From NCBI GenBank assembly GCA_002722885.1, contig PBNE01000001.1, positions 1 through 64,000 of the forward strand: a DNA stretch of 64,000 nucleotides. Reading direction: 5' to 3'. Positions 36,803-47,473 of this stretch are shown here, piece by piece; position 1 is the first letter of the stretch, and each line of letters starts with the position of its first letter. This stretch comes from Rhodospirillaceae bacterium. GTDB lineage: Bacteria > Pseudomonadota > Alphaproteobacteria > SP197. The translations under genes and the position numbers were made by a program. A model generated the notes under the pieces. The model saw only the letters and a list, made by a program, of their open reading frames with translations. It was not told where the DNA came from and ran no database searches.

Positions 36803-37744
36803 TCAACTCTTCACGACGTGATCCGTCAGACGCCCCGCCGCCTCGTCGAGGCTGAGGTCACCATCGCGCAACCCGGCGACGAGCCCGTCAAGGACGGTGT
36901 CTCCCTCCGCCGCCTGTTCAAACAGTTGCAGCGCACGGGCAACGACCTGCCGAGCCATACGCTGGTCTGCGCCCCGGCGCTTGTTGGCGCCATGTTCCCG
37001 GGCAACCGATGCCACAGCATCAGCAAGCGCGGGGACACCACTGCCGCTGGTCGCCGTTGTTGTCATGACTGTGGGTGGTGTTCCAGTGCCATAGGACGCC
37101 GCGCTGCGCAGGGCCGCTTCGGTTGCAGCAGCCTGGGGAAGGTCCGCCTTGTTGACCACCAGGACATCGGCGATCTCCAGGATACCCGCCTTGGCCGCCT
37201 GAACATCATCGCCTGCGCCCGGCGCCCAGACCACGACACGGACATCGGCCAGATCGGTGATCTCGATCTCCGATTGGCCGACACCCACGGTTTCCACAAC
37301 AATGACATCCCGTCCCGAGGCATCCATGACATCGACGACCGAACCGGTCGAAAGCGCCAGCCCCCCGAGATGTCCGCGCGAGGCGAGGCTGCGGACAAAC
37401 ACGCCGGGGTCACCGGCATGGGATAGCATGCGGATGCGGTCACCCAACAGCGCCCCGCCGGTCAGCGGGCTCGACGGATCGACCGCGAGAACGCCCACCG
37501 TCTGGCCCCTACGGCGCAGTTCCGCAACATAGGCGCCGACCAGAGTCGACTTGCCGGCGCCCGGGGCACCGGTCATGCCGACAACAAGAGCGCGGCCGCT
37601 CAGCCTTCGCGCGGCACGGAGAATTGCCTCGGCTTCATCGGTGTCGTTCTCAACCGCAGTGATCGCGCGCGCCAGCACGCCACGGTTGCCGCTGGCAAGC
37701 GTGGCGTCCCAGTCTGTGAAACTGTTGTCTGTGGTCCGGCTCAT
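36803..37744 (-). CDS. meaB: MeaB/ArgK-family GTPase (methylmalonyl-CoA mutase chaperone)
   Basis: A 313-residue G3E GTPase of the MeaB/ArgK family, which protects and reloads adenosylcobalamin in methylmalonyl-CoA mutase. Walker A is GAPGAGKS (59-66), the VDPSSP switch and ETVGVGQSE region follow, and NKAD gives guanine specificity. The mutase itself is not in the window. ATG 37744 is used; the upstream in-frame extension to 37783 lacks similarity. It is divergent from the degenerate ABC ATPase gene with a 68-base gap. Confidence 0.93.
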   Translation of the reverse strand: MSRTTDNSFTDWDATLASGNRGVLARAITAVENDTDEAEAILRAARRLSGRALVVGMTGAPGAGKSTLVGAYVAELRRRGQTVGVLAVDPSSPLTGGALLGDRIRMLSHAGDPGVFVRSLASRGHLGGLALSTGSVVDVMDASGRDVIVVETVGVGQSEIEITDLADVRVVVWAPGAGDDVQAAKAGILEIADVLVVNKADLPQAAATEAALRSAASYGTGTPPTVMTTTATSGSGVPALADAVASVAREHGANKRRGADQRMARQVVARALQLFEQAAEGDTVLDGLVAGLRDGDLSLDEAAGRLTDHVVKS

Positions 37745-37812
37745 GATGGCGGCGGAGCATACGCATGTTCCCGCCCGCAGCAAGCATGGCCTGCTTGCAC
37801 AGAGCCCAGGAA

Positions 37813-38949
37813 ATGCGCACGATCCTGCGCGTGAACGACATCAACACCTTGCAGATAAACGATGTCGCCGGTGCCGACAGCGGCGTCGCACCGGTCGACG
37901 GTGTTTCCCTGCGTCTGAGTGCGGGTCAGACGCTTGTTCTTCTGGGCGATTCGCGTTCCGGCAAAGAAAGCCTGGTGCGGCTGGTCGCAGGGTTCGGTGA
38001 TCTGGTGTCGGGCACGATCGCCTTCAACGGCCACGACATCACCCGGATGCCGCCGCACAAGCGGCCGTTCACACTGCTGACGGCGCGTGATGCACTGTTT
38101 CCGCACCTCGATATTGCCAACAACGTTGCCTACGGGATCAAACCCCGCATTGCCAAAAAGGAAGGTGGCAGCGACCCGCGCGTGCTGCGTACCCTGGAGA
38201 TGGTCGAACTGACGGCTGCGAGGGATGCCTTTCCCGAAGCGCTGAGCCCTGCCGAACGGCAACAGGTGGCGCTGGCAAGGGCGCTCGCTGTGGAACCGCT
38301 AGTTTTGCTGCTCGACAACGCCCTGAATGAACTCGACCCGCTGACCGAGGGCCGAGTGATGACGCGGCTGCGCGATCTGCAGCGCCAGGCGGGCTTCAGC
38401 ATCCTGGACGTGCGGCGTAAAGGCAGCGGCATGATGGCGCTGGCCGATCACATGGGCGTGCTGGCCGAGGGCCAACTGCTGGAACTGGACCGGCCACAGG
38501 TGCTCTACAGCACACCCCGATCGGCACTCACGGCGAGCCTCACGGGTCCGATCAACCTGATCCCAGGCGACAGACTCGCTGACCGGCCGGAAAGCGACGA
38601 AGGATCGATCACACGGAAGGCCGCAATGGGCCGTGCGAGTTGGGCTCTCGCCCTGCGTCCCGATGCCATCGAGCTCCACCTGACAGATGCGAACCTTCAA
38701 ACCCCAAGCCTTCGGGGAAAAATCGACGGCGTGGCCTATTCGGCCTTCGGCCTGACCGCACATATCAGGCTTTCCGGCCTTGAGACGCTGCTGACCGCAA
38801 GGGTCGATCACAAGCGGCTCGATGTCGATGACTTGCCCCCGGGGCGCAGAGTGTGGTGTACCTGGGATGACAGCGCGGCCAACGTCGTGCCATGGAATGG
38901 ACCAACAGAGCCGGACAGGACCGGCCACGATCAAGGGGCTTCGAGATGA
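37813..38949 (+). CDS. Degenerate (pseudo-) ABC ATPase of the PotA/CysA-like importer type with TOBE domain
   Basis: A 378-residue protein with the full layout of an ABC importer ATPase plus C-terminal TOBE-like domain (about 270-370), but its catalytic motifs are altered. Walker A reads GDSRSGKE (45-52), with Glu52 for Ser/Thr. The Q-loop Gln before ALFPHL is lost. The signature is LSPAE (144-148) instead of LSGGQ, though RQQVALARAL is kept. Walker B ends Asp168-Asn169 instead of Asp-Glu, and the switch His is Arg202 (VRRKGS). Length and coding quality are intact, so it may be a selected pseudo-ATPase. ATG 37813 is used although its ribosome-binding site is weak; ATG 37786 and GTG 37831 are alternatives. 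The stop overlaps the glycosyltransferase start. No permease is adjacent. Confidence 0.8.
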   Translation: MRTILRVNDINTLQINDVAGADSGVAPVDGVSLRLSAGQTLVLLGDSRSGKESLVRLVAGFGDLVSGTIAFNGHDITRMPPHKRPFTLLTARDALFPHLDIANNVAYGIKPRIAKKEGGSDPRVLRTLEMVELTAARDAFPEALSPAERQQVALARALAVEPLVLLLDNALNELDPLTEGRVMTRLRDLQRQAGFSILDVRRKGSGMMALADHMGVLAEGQLLELDRPQVLYSTPRSALTASLTGPINLIPGDRLADRPESDEGSITRKAAMGRASWALALRPDAIELHLTDANLQTPSLRGKIDGVAYSAFGLTAHIRLSGLETLLTARVDHKRLDVDDLPPGRRVWCTWDDSAANVVPWNGPTEPDRTGHDQGASR

Positions 38950-40241
38950 GTTACGGTAAAACCATTGTCTTCTTTCCCGAGGGCGCCTTCGGACCGGCGC
39001 TGAACTCAGTCGGCATCGCACAGGTCTGCAAGGAAATGGGCCACAACCCGGTCTTCGTGGCCGATGCCGGCTTCGGCGGTGTGTTCGAAGGTTACGGCTT
39101 CGAGGAGCACTTGATCTCGATGTCCGAGCCGATGGAACCCGAAGCGATGGCGCGCTACTGGGTCGACTTCATCAACGGCCAAATTCCGAACTTCCGCACA
39201 CCGCCGATCGATCAGGTTTCGACCTACATCAAGGCCTGCTGGGAGGCGATCGTCGACACCGCGCTGTGGGCCGAGAAGGACCTTCCGGCGACACTAGACA
39301 AGATCAAACCCGACCTGATCTGCGTCGACAATGTGGTGCTGTTCCCGGCGACCAAACGTTATGGCGTGCCCTGGGTGCGCATCATCTCGTGCAGCGAGAA
39401 CGAAATCGAGGACCCGGACATTCCGCCGCACCTTTCCGGCTGCCGTGAGGACGACCACGCCTGCTTTGCCGCTTATCGCGAGAAGTTCGACCGGGAGATC
39501 GGTCCGATCCACGCGCAATTCAACGAGTTCCTGAAAGACTGCGGCGAGGAACCCTATCCCCTGGGTCAGTTCTTCGAGGCTTCGCCCCATCTCAACCTGC
39601 TGCACTATCCCAAGCCCCTGGCGTTCAACCGCCGCCATCCGCTGGATCCTGAGAAGTTCGTCTACCTCGAAGGCTGTATCCGCGAGGACGCGCCTTACGA
39701 GATCCCCGAGTTCAAGGCACACAACGACAAGCCGCTGCTTTATGTCAGCTTCGGCAGCCTAGGTTCCGGCGACACCGACCTGATGAAGCGCCTGATGGCC
39801 ACATTGGGCAACTTGCCCTACCGCGTCCTGGTCAACGTGGGCGACTACGGCGACGCTTACGAGGCAATCCCCAACAACTGCCATGTCGAAAGCTGGTATC
39901 CGCAGCCTTCGGTCATCGCCCAGGTTGATGCGGTGATTCATCACGGCGGCAACAACAGCTTCAACGAGTGCCTCTATTTCGGGAAACCCGCGCTGATCAT
40001 GCCTTACTGCTGGGACGGCCACGACAACGCAACCCATATCGACGAGCGCGGTTACGGCATCGCGATGGAACGTTATGTCTGGGAGGATTCCGATATCGCC
40101 GCGGCAGTCAACCGGATGCTGACCGACAGCGACATGCACGGGAAAATCGCGGCGCTCAGCAAGCATATGCAGGCCGAAAACGGCACCCGGAAGGGTGCGG
40201 AGGCGCTCGACAAACTGCTGCGTGAGACCGCGGCATCATGA
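38946..40241 (+). CDS. UDP-glycosyltransferase-like protein (GT-B, GT1 type)
   Basis: A 431-residue GT-B glycosyltransferase resembling macrolide and UDP-glucuronosyltransferases, which move a sugar from a nucleotide donor to a small acceptor. The N-terminal domain starts TIVFFPEGAFGPALNSVGIA; LLYVSFGSLGS opens the donor domain; SWYPQPSVIAQVDAVIHHGGNN-SFNE... DGHDNATHI matches the PSPG-like donor-binding motif. It is translationally coupled at both ends by ATGA overlaps with the degenerate ATPase and the cupin. The acceptor is unknown. Confidence 0.9.
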   Translation: MSYGKTIVFFPEGAFGPALNSVGIAQVCKEMGHNPVFVADAGFGGVFEGYGFEEHLISMSEPMEPEAMARYWVDFINGQIPNFRTPPIDQVSTYIKACWEAIVDTALWAEKDLPATLDKIKPDLICVDNVVLFPATKRYGVPWVRIISCSENEIEDPDIPPHLSGCREDDHACFAAYREKFDREIGPIHAQFNEFLKDCGEEPYPLGQFFEASPHLNLLHYPKPLAFNRRHPLDPEKFVYLEGCIREDAPYEIPEFKAHNDKPLLYVSFGSLGSGDTDLMKRLMATLGNLPYRVLVNVGDYGDAYEAIPNNCHVESWYPQPSVIAQVDAVIHHGGNNSFNECLYFGKPALIMPYCWDGHDNATHIDERGYGIAMERYVWEDSDIAAAVNRMLTDSDMHGKIAALSKHMQAENGTRKGAEALDKLLRETAAS

Positions 40242-40600
40242 CCATGCCGACCGTTTCGCTCTTCGAGCAGGCGGCGGAACTGGCCCATGCCGTCCTCGCT
40301 GACTGGGGTGCTGTACCCGAACCCTTGGGCGATGAGATCTCGCACACCTCCGGCCGCATTCTGACCGGCGGCGGAGGCCAGTTTCCGGAGTCCGGCTATT
40401 GGCGCTGCACGCCGGGAAGCTGGCGTTGCGAGATTGCCCGGGCCGAGTTCTGTCAGTTTCTGGAAGGCGAATGCACCTATACCAGCGACGACGGTGAGAT
40501 CATCGAGATCAGGGGCGGCGACACCGCCTGGTTTCCGGAAGGCTGGAAGGGCCGCTGCGATGTGCGGCGCACGATGGGAAAAACCTACGTCATCCTGTGA
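40238..40600 (+). CDS. Cupin domain protein
   Basis: A 120-residue single-domain cupin, most like the PF05899 (Cupin_3) ureidoglycine-aminohydrolase-like group. The conserved strands include WRCEIARAEFCQFLEGECTYTSDDGE and GDTAWFPEGWKGRCDV. The usual metal-binding His residues of cupin motif 1 are poorly represented, so metal binding is uncertain. Its ATG overlaps the glycosyltransferase stop (ATGA), making it the third gene of a coupled set. Role unknown; such proteins often bind or isomerise sugars. Confidence 0.85.
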   Translation: MTMPTVSLFEQAAELAHAVLADWGAVPEPLGDEISHTSGRILTGGGGQFPESGYWRCTPGSWRCEIARAEFCQFLEGECTYTSDDGEIIEIRGGDTAWFPEGWKGRCDVRRTMGKTYVIL

Positions 40601-44637: not shown

Positions 44638-46434
44638 CTATCCCGCGAGTGTCTCTCTGAGCTCTTCGAGTTCCAGCCACCGCTCTTCGGCTGCAGCGAG
44701 TTCGTCTTGCGCGGCTTGCAGATCGTCAGCCGCCTTCTGGTAGGCTTTCGGATCACGCGTGAAAAGTTCACCGTCTGCCAGAACGTCCTCCAGACGTGCA
44801 ATCTCGGTTTCCAGCTCGGCGATCCTGTCGGGCAGCATGTCGAGCTCGCGCTGGTCCATGTAGCTGAGCTTCGTGCGGGTCTTCGGTTTCGGAACGGTGG
44901 CGCTCTCCTTGCGTACCGGCTCAGCACTCTCCGCGGGCGCTGAACTTCTGGTCTTCATGCGATGGTAGTCGCTGTAGCCCCCGGGGCTCTCCACGATGGT
45001 TCCGTCGCCTTCCAGGCCGTAGGTCAGGGTCACGAGGCGGTCGAGAAAATCACGGTCATGGCTGACCACGATCAGCGTGCCGGGGAAGTCGGCCAACACG
45101 TCCTGCAGCAGATCCAGTGTCTCCATGTCGAGATCGTTGGTCGGCTCATCGAGCACGAGGAGATCGGCAGGCTGAGTGAACAGCCGTGCCAGAAGCAGAC
45201 GGTTCCGCTCACCACCCGACAGCGTGCGGATCGGCTGGCGTGCCTGGTTTTCGGCAAACAGGAAGTCGCGAAGATACGCCACAACATGGCGGGATTCGCC
45301 ACGGACCATGACGCGGTCACTGTTGCCAGACGCCAGGGTCTTCCAGGGCGTGCTGTCGGTATCGAGCGCCTCCCGGCGCTGATCGAAATAGGCGGTCTTC
45401 AGTTCCGGCGCATGGTGGACGCTGCCGTCATCAGGCTGTAGATGCCCCGTCAGCATGCGGATTAGCGTCGTCTTGCCCACGCCGTTGGGGCCGACAACCC
45501 CGATCCGGTCGCGACGTAGGACCCGCGCATCGAACGGCGCAACAATAGTCTTGCCGTCAAAGGCCTTGGTGATGCCGGCCGCCTCGATCACGAGATTGCT
45601 GCGGCTGGCACCGCCCTCCAGCCCAATCGTGGCGCTGCCCTGCCAGGACCGGCGCAGTTCCGCCCTCTCGGCACGCAGGTTGGCCAGTTCCGCAACACGG
45701 CGCTGGTTGCGTGTCCGCCGCGCCGTCACCCCACGCTCCATGTAGCGTTCTTCCTCGGAGATACGGCGTGCCACCCGCTCAGCATTGCGCTGATCCGCCT
45801 GGGTGATCTCTTCGGCCCAGATCTCAAACGTCTCGAACCCGGCGTCGCGGCGGTGCAAGGTGCCGCGATCGAGCCACAGCATGGCTGTGGTTACACGCCG
45901 CAGAAAGGCGCGATCGTGGCTCACGATGACCGTCGCGCCGCGGAAGGCTGCAACAAAACCTTCCAGCCATTCGATCGCCTTGATGTCGAGATGGTTGGTC
46001 GGCTCATCGAGCAGGAGGACGTCGGGCTCGGCCGCCAGGACACGGGCCAGGTGGGCGCGGCGCTGTTCGCCGCCGGAGAGATCGGCCATGGGCCGGTCGC
46101 CATCCAGACCGAGGCGATCCAGATAGGCTTCGGCACGATGGCGGCCGGCGTCATCGGCCAAGTCTGCTGCCGCCCACTCCAGCGCCGTACCCCCGGGGTC
46201 GTCGAGAATTTCCTGGCTCAAAAGTCCAACCTTCGTGCCGGGCTGGCAGAACCGCTCGCCCCGGTCGCTTTCGAGCAGTCCGACAAGAATCCGCAACAGC
46301 GTGGACTTGCCGCAACCGTTCCGTCCAATCAGACAGAAACGGTCGCCAGGCTCCAGCGCTAGTTCCAAGTCATGGAACAGCGGCTGCCGGTCAGCGTGAT
46401 GCGCGAGACCGCGCAGGGTCAGGATTGGTGGCAT
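44638..46434 (-). CDS. uup: ABC-F ATPase, Uup-like
   Basis: A 598-residue soluble ABC-F protein with two ATPase domains and no membrane part. Domain 1 has Walker A GRNGCGKST, signature LSGGEQRR and Walker B VLLLDEPTNHLD. Domain 2 has GPNGVGKTT, LSGGERNR and LVLDEPTNDLD. A Lys/Arg/Glu-rich linker joins them. The last 90 residues are a coiled-coil tail (ELETEIARLEDVLAD) as in Uup, which acts on ribosomes and influences transposon excision. ATG 46434 is used since similarity starts there. Confidence 0.92.
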   Translation of the reverse strand: MPPILTLRGLAHHADRQPLFHDLELALEPGDRFCLIGRNGCGKSTLLRILVGLLESDRGERFCQPGTKVGLLSQEILDDPGGTALEWAAADLADDAGRHRAEAYLDRLGLDGDRPMADLSGGEQRRAHLARVLAAEPDVLLLDEPTNHLDIKAIEWLEGFVAAFRGATVIVSHDRAFLRRVTTAMLWLDRGTLHRRDAGFETFEIWAEEITQADQRNAERVARRISEEERYMERGVTARRTRNQRRVAELANLRAERAELRRSWQGSATIGLEGGASRSNLVIEAAGITKAFDGKTIVAPFDARVLRRDRIGVVGPNGVGKTTLIRMLTGHLQPDDGSVHHAPELKTAYFDQRREALDTDSTPWKTLASGNSDRVMVRGESRHVVAYLRDFLFAENQARQPIRTLSGGERNRLLLARLFTQPADLLVLDEPTNDLDMETLDLLQDVLADFPGTLIVVSHDRDFLDRLVTLTYGLEGDGTIVESPGGYSDYHRMKTRSSAPAESAEPVRKESATVPKPKTRTKLSYMDQRELDMLPDRIAELETEIARLEDVLADGELFTRDPKAYQKAADDLQAAQDELAAAEERWLELEELRETLAG

Positions 46435-46540
46435 GGCGAGGCGACTTAACACATGCGGCGCAAGAGAGGCATACCTTGCCGCACAGCAGGTGCAATGACA
46501 GGATGCCGCACGGTTTCTCCCCTCCAACAACGGGTTCCCT

Positions 46541-47473
46541 TTGCTGAGCGTATTCGACCCATCAAGGCCGGCCTGGCAGCGGCGTCTCGCGATCCTGTTC
46601 ATGATGGTGTTCTGCGGTGGCATTTGGGGCCTGGTGCCGACACTGGCAAAGACCGCCATCGAGGACGGTGCCCATCCCTTCGGCCTGACATGGTGGCAGG
46701 GCATCGGGGCGGGGGGCGTCTTGCTGATCTATCTCACGCTGCGGAGCAAACGCCTTCCGCTCGACCGCAATCACATTCTTCTCTACCTCTTCTGCGGGTT
46801 GTTCGGCACGATCATGCCCACGCTGGCTCTTTTCTACGCCGCCGAGCACATCTCAGCCGGGATCATGGCCATGACCATGGCCATGATCCCCATCGCAGCG
46901 TATGTGATCTCACTGGCCGTCCGCATCGACCACCTCGAATTGGGCCGCTCCATCGGCATTGCCCTGGGTCTGGCGGGCGTTGCCCTGCTGGTCCTACCGG
47001 GTGCAGAGACATCAATCGATGGGCCGTTCTGGATCATTATCGCCATGCTCGTTCCCCTGGGCTACGCGATGGAGAACGTGTTTCTGGCGGTCCGCAGCCC
47101 ACGTGGCACGGAAACCACCGTGCTGGTCTGTGGCATGGTGCTGACGGGCGGGCTGATCATGACACCCGTGATGCTTGCGACCGGCACCTGGTATCCGATC
47201 ACCTGGCCGCTGAGTGAACCGGAGCTTTCGGTCATCGCCATCTTCATTGTGAACATCCTGAGCTACGGCATGTTCCTCACGCTGATCTTTGCTGCCGGGC
47301 CGGTGCTCGCCTCGATGTCCGGTTACTTCACGGTGCTGACCGGCATCCTCTGGGGCATGGCGCTGCTGGGCGAAAGCCATGGCCTGCTGTTCTGGGCTGC
47401 GCTCGCCACCACGCTCGCAGGCATGGCACTGGTACGCGAACGCCGGGTCGAGCGGACGGTCGAAGCAACATGA
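46541..47473 (+). CDS. DMT/EamA-family transporter (tandem copy 1)
   Basis: A 310-residue ten-helix DMT transporter. The frame has no ATG at its start; TTG 46541 (MLSVFDPSRPAWQRR) is the best candidate, with only a weak GGG upstream. It is a paralogue of the gene that follows: both show GGxWGLxxxLAxxAxEDGxHPxGLTxWQGIG near the N-terminus. The two overlap by ATGA, which suggests equal synthesis and perhaps a heteromer, though DMT proteins often work as single chains. Confidence 0.85.
   Translation: MLSVFDPSRPAWQRRLAILFMMVFCGGIWGLVPTLAKTAIEDGAHPFGLTWWQGIGAGGVLLIYLTLRSKRLPLDRNHILLYLFCGLFGTIMPTLALFYAAEHISAGIMAMTMAMIPIAAYVISLAVRIDHLELGRSIGIALGLAGVALLVLPGAETSIDGPFWIIIAMLVPLGYAMENVFLAVRSPRGTETTVLVCGMVLTGGLIMTPVMLATGTWYPITWPLSEPELSVIAIFIVNILSYGMFLTLIFAAGPVLASMSGYFTVLTGILWGMALLGESHGLLFWAALATTLAGMALVRERRVERTVEAT

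Follow-up and report, generated by a model that had tools for sequence, protein, structure and literature searches.

The locus

The window, a 64,000-nucleotide stretch of contig PBNE01000001.1 from a Rhodospirillaceae bacterium (Alphaproteobacteria), contains a gene for a degenerate relative of ABC importer ATPases (hereafter the pseudo-ATPase), which is followed by a glycosyltransferase-like gene (GT) and a cupin gene, and flanked on its other side by the gene for the MeaB GTPase (Table 1). The initial annotation had described an intact reading frame that encodes the full importer-ATPase layout with a TOBE domain, and both points are borne out: the frame is open over all its 378 codons, and Pfam matches both domains in its product (ABC_tran, E 1.1e-19; TOBE_2, E 1.2e-6), i.e. 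a nucleotide-binding domain (NBD) fused to TOBE, as in the importer ATPases of the PotA/MalK type.

Translation probably begins at GTG 37831, which gives a protein of 372 aa. This codon is preferred because it aligns with the chosen start of eight relatives, and ATG 37813 is disfavoured because the DNA that surrounds it is conserved but out of frame at loci L011 and L012. Residue numbers below refer to the 372-aa version, and adding six converts them to those of the initial annotation. The segment just 5' of the likely start (37810–37824, AATGCGCACGATC) is identical in the window copy, L011, L012 and L013; as it does not lie in one reading frame in these, it is perhaps a leader or has a control function. 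Elsewhere in the window, on the minus strand (44638–46704), there is an ORF with two ABC-ATPase-like stretches, probably encoding an ABC-F-type protein and unrelated to the finding described here.

Table 1. Features of the pseudo-ATPase gene and its neighbourhood (window positions)
Feature	Coordinates	Strand	Remarks
MeaB GTPase gene	36803..37783	-	divergent
Pseudo-ATPase ORF, 378 aa, from ATG 37813	37813..38949	+	open frame, uninterrupted
A-loop position 16	37876..37878	+	Asp, not the adenine-stacking aromatic; alignment
Walker A, degenerate, GDSRSGKES	37945..37971	+	Lys kept, Mg-binding Ser/Thr replaced by Glu46
Q-loop, degenerate, LTARD	38077..38091	+	Ala85, without Gln
ALFPH..NNVAYGI segment	38092..38139	+	best-retained stretch; starts in coupling-helix cleft
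Signature, degenerate, LSPAE	38242..38256	+	canonical LSGGQ
Walker B, VLLLDN	38302..38319	+	Asp162 kept, catalytic Glu replaced by Asn163
Switch region, DVRRK	38407..38421	+	His replaced by Arg196
Hinge, LTGPINL	38539..38559	+	TGPxNL invariant in 9/9; alignment
TOBE_2 domain	38647..38880	+	strand GR[RQ][VI]WCT[WF] common to all nine; Pfam, alignment
Glycosyltransferase-like gene (GT)	38946..40241	+	ATGA overlap with pseudo-ATPase stop
EutQ-like cupin gene (Cupin_3)	40238..40600	+	overlaps GT stop; Pfam

Loss of the ATP-handling motifs

The motif changes listed in the initial annotation are all present (in its 378-aa numbering: Glu52, the missing Q-loop Gln, LSPAE, Asn169 and Arg202), and the loss of the A-loop aromatic, which it did not mention, is to be added to them. 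The window copy fails all six patterns considered, i.e. the A-loop aromatic, the Walker A pattern GxxxxGK[ST], the Q-loop Gln, LSGGQ, the Walker B Glu and the switch His; the Walker A Lys and the Walker B Asp are both retained. According to excerpts of a study of the E. coli PotA structure (PMC11414716), residues F27 (the adenine-stacking one), T57, S149, D172 and H206 handle ATP, and replacement of F27, T57, S149 or D172 by Ala lowers the ATPase activity. By alignment offset these residues correspond to positions 16, 46, 139, 162 and 196 of the pseudo-ATPase, of which 16, 46 and 196 are replaced in the window copy, and Ser139 and Asp162 are kept.

Orthologues were found in 9 of the 16 genomes of the family (the window genome and eight others) at E<=1e-50, the eight relatives being 44–54% identical to the window copy at the amino acid level. 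All eight are likewise degenerate, to a varying degree, and none has intact motifs. None of the nine orthologues retains the A-loop aromatic, the LSGGQ signature or the switch His; position 16 of the A-loop is D or E in eight of them and A in one, and F or Y in 6/6 PotA proteins encoded beside the same GT in other bacteria (GT-linked PotAs, see below). The Q-loop Gln is lost in 8/9, the Walker B Glu in 5/9 (kept in 4/9), the Walker A Ser/Thr in 4/9 and the Walker A Lys in 3/9 (kept in 6/9), the orthologues of G003 and G008 being among those without this Lys. The Walker B Asp and the D-loop Asp169 are kept in all nine. Since the loose P-loop pattern GxxxxGK[ST] still fits five of the nine members, the degree of degeneration differs among orthologues, and as motif loss recurs across all nine, it is no product of chance or of a sequencing slip.

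In a wider search, only five proteins reached E<=1e-50 among 385 sampled genomes of the class, namely three family members (window genome included) and two PotA-type proteins with intact motifs. A scan of named genomes returned ten loci, six at 44–54% identity, which apparently are the orthologues of G002, G005, G008, G009, G014 and G015 already counted, and four weaker ones, of which L079 was checked and proved to have intact motifs. No hidden pseudo-ATPase came up above threshold when 11 stretches around GTs lacking a match were searched with a profile; this search found only two other ATPases (L070), which we read as of the branched-chain type, and the G031 remnant described below. A viral origin was also considered and rejected, as the six pattern matches in a scan of viral contigs included no relative.

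Selection versus decay

Rates of substitution were taken from two close pairs; more distant ones were excluded, their silent sites being nearly saturated. For the pairs L011/L012 and L017/L018, respectively, dN/dS of the pseudo-ATPase is 0.126 and 0.065 by NG86 (0.089 and 0.046 by YN00); the NG86 values are 0.031 and 0.042 for the GT, 0.071 and 0.041 for MeaB, 0.115 and 0.104 for a HEAT protein, 0.088 and 0.136 for a small Sel1 protein, and 0.121 and 0.128 for a large Sel1/TPR protein. The pseudo-ATPase therefore evolves faster than the GT and on a par with ordinary neighbours. The nine frames are all open, they come from three genera, and a single one-residue indel separates them in the NBD.

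Recent decay, which the initial annotation had judged less likely, can be dismissed on the combined evidence of degeneracy shared by the orthologues in 9/16 genomes and of dN/dS values of 0.05–0.13, which show no relaxation in either close pair. The same annotation had proposed that the protein is kept for a non-catalytic role, and we agree: the orthologues are degenerate yet under purifying selection, and the pseudo-ATPase is very probably a selected non-catalytic protein.

Probable descent from a GT-linked importer ATPase

In other Alphaproteobacteria the same GT belongs to a complete operon (PotD-PotB-PotC-PotA-GT-cupin) whose PotA is intact. The intact operon is present at 4/4 loci of one genus (L066–L069) and on plasmids of Ruegeria, Shinella and Pararhizobium, in all of which the gene order is receptor, two channel genes, ATPase, GT, two cupins and aldehyde dehydrogenase. 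The receptor of the three plasmids is annotated as a spermidine/putrescine-binding protein, and every motif is present in the ATPases encoded at L066, L067 and L069 and on the three plasmids. A limited literature search found no paper on this PotDBCA-GT-cupin-cupin-aldehyde dehydrogenase operon. On the plasmids (L088, L089, L091) a second GT and a GntR regulator lie divergently upstream of the operon. Plasmids of the haloarchaea Natrialba and Natronorubrum (L090, L092) carry a GT-cupin-aldehyde dehydrogenase trio with no ATPase directly before it and a GT identity of 55–56%, which suggests a transfer between domains; one of the two trios is near genes that we take to resemble the Puu pathway.

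When compared with 21 canonical ATPases, each of the nine pseudo-ATPases matched a GT-linked PotA best, with a narrow margin for L013 (184 vs 181 bits), and among 72,556 plasmid records the sole ATPase match at E<=1e-40 was the GT-linked one of Ruegeria. The pseudo-ATPases group with the GT-linked PotAs at moderate support (87/75) and on a long stem in a tree from which own_L006, own_L007, rel_L026, rel_L027 and GTop_L068 were left out; in the first tree, calculated without the plasmid sequences, they had no resolved position. We consider it likely that the pseudo-ATPase descends from a GT-linked PotA. A separate decay of the same ATPase is seen in G031, where a frame-broken 3' remnant of PotA with an ordinary switch His (L064:7742-8218, minus strand) lies directly before the GT.

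The cognate transporter appears to be missing. Between far lineages, the cognate PotD is 69% and PotC 65% and 59% identical. Across the 16 family genomes the best match to PotD is only 30% identical, with none at E<=1e-30 in the window's own genome, and the closest match to PotC is 36% identical in the own genome and 45% across the family. No PotB, PotC or PotD was found at E<=1e-5 in the 64-kb window or in the stretches around the eight relatives, one of which (L036) is short, with 3.4 kb upstream of the pseudo-ATPase. The own genome has four PotC-like genes at E<=1e-10, and no more than about 3 kb from each is a different ATPase gene, whose product keeps Walker A, the Walker B Glu and the switch His; with such an ATPase nearby, none of the four looks orphaned. 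Neither the origin from a PotDBCA-GT-cupin operon nor the absence of the cognate transporter was part of the initial annotation.

What remains constrained

Six GT-linked PotAs used as reference share 148 invariant columns. In seven pseudo-ATPases (the near-copies L012 and L018 having been removed for these and the other column counts given below) 5/21 of the ATP-site columns are still invariant vs 49/127 of the others (p=0.23). A preferential loss of ATP-site residues is accordingly rejected, and we see no sign of directed remodelling of the ATP site, only a lifted constraint; in the alignment, its columns now drift no differently from the average column.

The best-retained stretch is residues 88–103, in which 0.94 of the invariance over 11 columns is retained vs 0.44 elsewhere (permutation p 0.0042, for a window width of 11 set after this region had been looked at). 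It may be kept for folding only. In MalK, residues F81–Y87 form the cleft for the coupling helix, as stated in excerpts of PMC7658222, and correspond to residues 84–90 of the pseudo-ATPase when the alignment is anchored on the Gln. The first half of the cleft is altered in 9/9 orthologues, with Phe 84 replaced by Thr or Gly and Tyr 87 by Asp; D87 is invariant in the nine pseudo-ATPases and is Tyr in 6/6 GT-linked PotAs.

The hinge that precedes the TOBE domain contains Pro240, which was not seen in the canonical panel. Within TOBE, Leu330, Asp334, Leu335, Gly338, Arg339, Trp342, Cys343 and Thr344 are invariant in 9/9, and these residues vary in a mixed canonical panel, a contrast that is indicative only, as paralogues are mixed in that panel (12 of the 20 canonical rows of the first tree). 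Trp342 and Cys343 are common to the GT-linked PotAs of L066 and L067. The conservation of the C-terminal TOBE region is 0.49 in the pseudo-ATPases vs 0.20 in the mixed canonical panel, and 0.43 vs 0.34 when the GT-linked PotAs are used for comparison, the panels differing in depth of divergence.

A structure model based on a 29-row alignment has a mean pLDDT of 89.9 (an earlier one from a 9-row alignment, with pLDDT 47.3, was discarded), and its top Foldseek matches are chains of FbpC, PotA, MalK and CysA (E 4.1e-29 to 5.9e-28). The fold of the pseudo-ATPase is predicted to be intact.

The glycosyltransferase-like neighbour

The coupling to a glycosyltransferase, on which the initial annotation relied, recurs together with the gene order: the same GT is directly downstream of the pseudo-ATPase at 9/9 loci, with a gap of -4 to +64 nt (12 to 64 nt in the eight relatives). 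A cupin follows the GT at the window locus and in 5/8 relatives, and MeaB is divergently upstream in 7/8 relatives. The GT is 78–91% identical to the window copy vs 44–54% for the pseudo-ATPase. It was found in 15/16 family genomes (split over two contigs in G001); six of these lack the pseudo-ATPase, so the GT does not require this companion. In a GT tree made without the split G001 sequence, the carriers of the pseudo-ATPase form one clade together with G004, G006 and G007 (100/100), and G011 and G013 fall outside it; the nesting of G004, G006 and G007 beside G008 (99/96) points to one later loss of the pseudo-ATPase there. A faster evolution of the GT after this loss was considered for the G004/G006/G007 branch and dropped, since MeaB of G004 is also more diverged.

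In the spider-mite enzyme UGT203A2, the His of the AFGH motif is presumably the catalytic His of GT1 enzymes. This enzyme is the best solved relative of the GT (7lvy, E 1.5e-52). At the corresponding position of the GT, none of 33 rows has His, 30 having Pro and three Ala (the latter being second copies on plasmids), and only two second copies have lost the donor motif HHGGNN[ST]F. To go by these residues, a different base may serve the GT, or it may not be a transferase.

Possible functions of the pseudo-ATPase

We propose a scenario that would begin with an ancestral operon PotD-PotB-PotC-PotA-GT-cupin, encoding an ABC importer of the polyamine type, from which the receptor and channel genes would have been lost in the ancestor of this alphaproteobacterial family. 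The orphaned ATPase would then have lost its nucleotide chemistry, with purifying selection keeping a folded, non-hydrolysing protein. This protein may bind a partner protein via its TOBE domain and the old coupling-helix cleft, which the invariant Asp87 and Thr/Gly84 would have rewired. Since the ATP residues and the importer are lost, yet the gene is kept beside the GT, its job is probably non-catalytic, and on balance, if with reserve, we favour the view that an orphaned importer ATPase has been retained to bind protein without hydrolysing ATP, most likely as a subunit of the GT module. The partner would most likely be the GT of the next gene, of which the pseudo-ATPase would be a stabilising or activating subunit; this role is our first choice because the GT is the only companion at all nine loci, and a direct partnership of the two proteins is a tentative proposal, somewhat short of an even chance. 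A precedent is offered by activators of the EryCII/DesVIII type, dead P450-derived proteins that are encoded beside some macrolide GTs and needed for their activity. They may serve by analogy as a model for the partner hypothesis, being dead relatives of an enzyme next to a GT, but they derive from cytochrome P450, and the present GT matches the model of activator-dependent GTs, TIGR04516, only distantly (48.8 bits, cut-off 440). In the most far-reaching version, which we regard as rather unlikely, an importer ATPase would have become the non-catalytic subunit of a GT-like enzyme that lacks the GT1 His, the channel-docking cleft would hold the enzyme, and two altered enzymes would make one working unit.

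Among the alternatives to the subunit role, the highest in rank is a dead second ATPase that is still docked on a surviving channel of the PotB/PotC type, yielding a half-active or blocked transporter. The retained segment at the coupling-helix cleft, the predicted MalK/PotA-like fold and the four PotC-like channel genes of the own genome agree with it, but all four of these genes are close to an ATPase gene that keeps the motifs named above, neither the window nor the relatives' stretches (with the limited upstream reach of L036) yielded a channel gene, and the Phe and Tyr equivalents of the MalK cleft are replaced in every orthologue, so we hold this alternative to be improbable. Next in rank, and improbable as well, is a regulator whose TOBE domain would bind a small ligand, either a polyamine or a product, in the manner of MalK, which has a regulatory side job. 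The raised conservation of TOBE in both comparisons speaks for such a regulator, but those comparisons involve panels of different divergence depth, and none of the genes in the unit was recognised as encoding a regulator.

Very improbable, to our mind, is a slow decay that would make the protein a relic without present function. The drift of the ATP-site columns, the lower identity of the pseudo-ATPase as compared to the GT and its loss from one subclade would all follow from it, but the low dN/dS of both pairs and nine open frames from three genera, which differ in length within the NBD by just one single-residue indel, would be difficult to reconcile with it. The last place is taken by a nucleotide sensor, which would bind ATP without hydrolysis and which the initial annotation had offered among the possible jobs. 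It could draw on the Walker A Lys in six orthologues, the GxxxxGK[ST] pattern in five and the Walker B Asp in all, but the aromatic that would stack against adenine is replaced throughout, by an acidic residue in eight cases, the Lys is gone from three members and the Ser/Thr from four (among them the window copy), and the signature and switch His from all. With the A-loop aromatic gone in 9/9 and the Walker A Lys in 3/9, this claim finds no support for the family: judging from these residues, sensing is unlikely to be the common job, and nucleotide binding is possible in some members, five of nine fitting GxxxxGK[ST].

Relation to known systems

The best solved sequence relative of the pseudo-ATPase is PotA of the E. 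coli spermidine importer PotABCD (PDB 8y5f and 8zx1; E 2.7e-61 with the family profile), with which it shares the NBD and TOBE fold in the model and which represents the type of the ancestor by gene order. The window copy differs from PotA in that its A-loop, Q-loop and signature are not functional, the Walker B Glu and the switch His are absent, and Walker A is altered; moreover, there is no PotB, PotC or PotD gene beside it. Degenerate nucleotide-binding sites are known from the heterodimeric ABC exporters TM287/288, TmrAB and MRP1 (PMC7756269, in excerpts), where, too, an NBD site without hydrolysis is kept; as these excerpts describe them, however, such sites lie within a working transporter, beside an active site, whereas the pseudo-ATPase is a soluble protein of the importer type with no transporter gene at its locus. 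It might conceivably pair with an active ATPase whose gene lies elsewhere in the genome. MsmX, according to excerpts of PMC7658222, is a stand-alone, multitask importer ATPase and in this resembles the pseudo-ATPase, not being bound to one transporter operon, but it works with several channels and has retained its catalytic motifs. Among the matches listed in a limited literature search (titles and openings of abstracts), none described a free-standing pseudo-ATPase of the importer type.

While degenerate ABC sites are known inside exporters, here we deal with a free-standing importer ATPase without transporter or ATP chemistry, and the fact that selection retains it in three genera offers a natural test of the uses of the ABC fold apart from ATP. 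As intact, decayed (G031) and repurposed forms of the ATPase all lie beside the same GT, the steps of this change can be compared directly.
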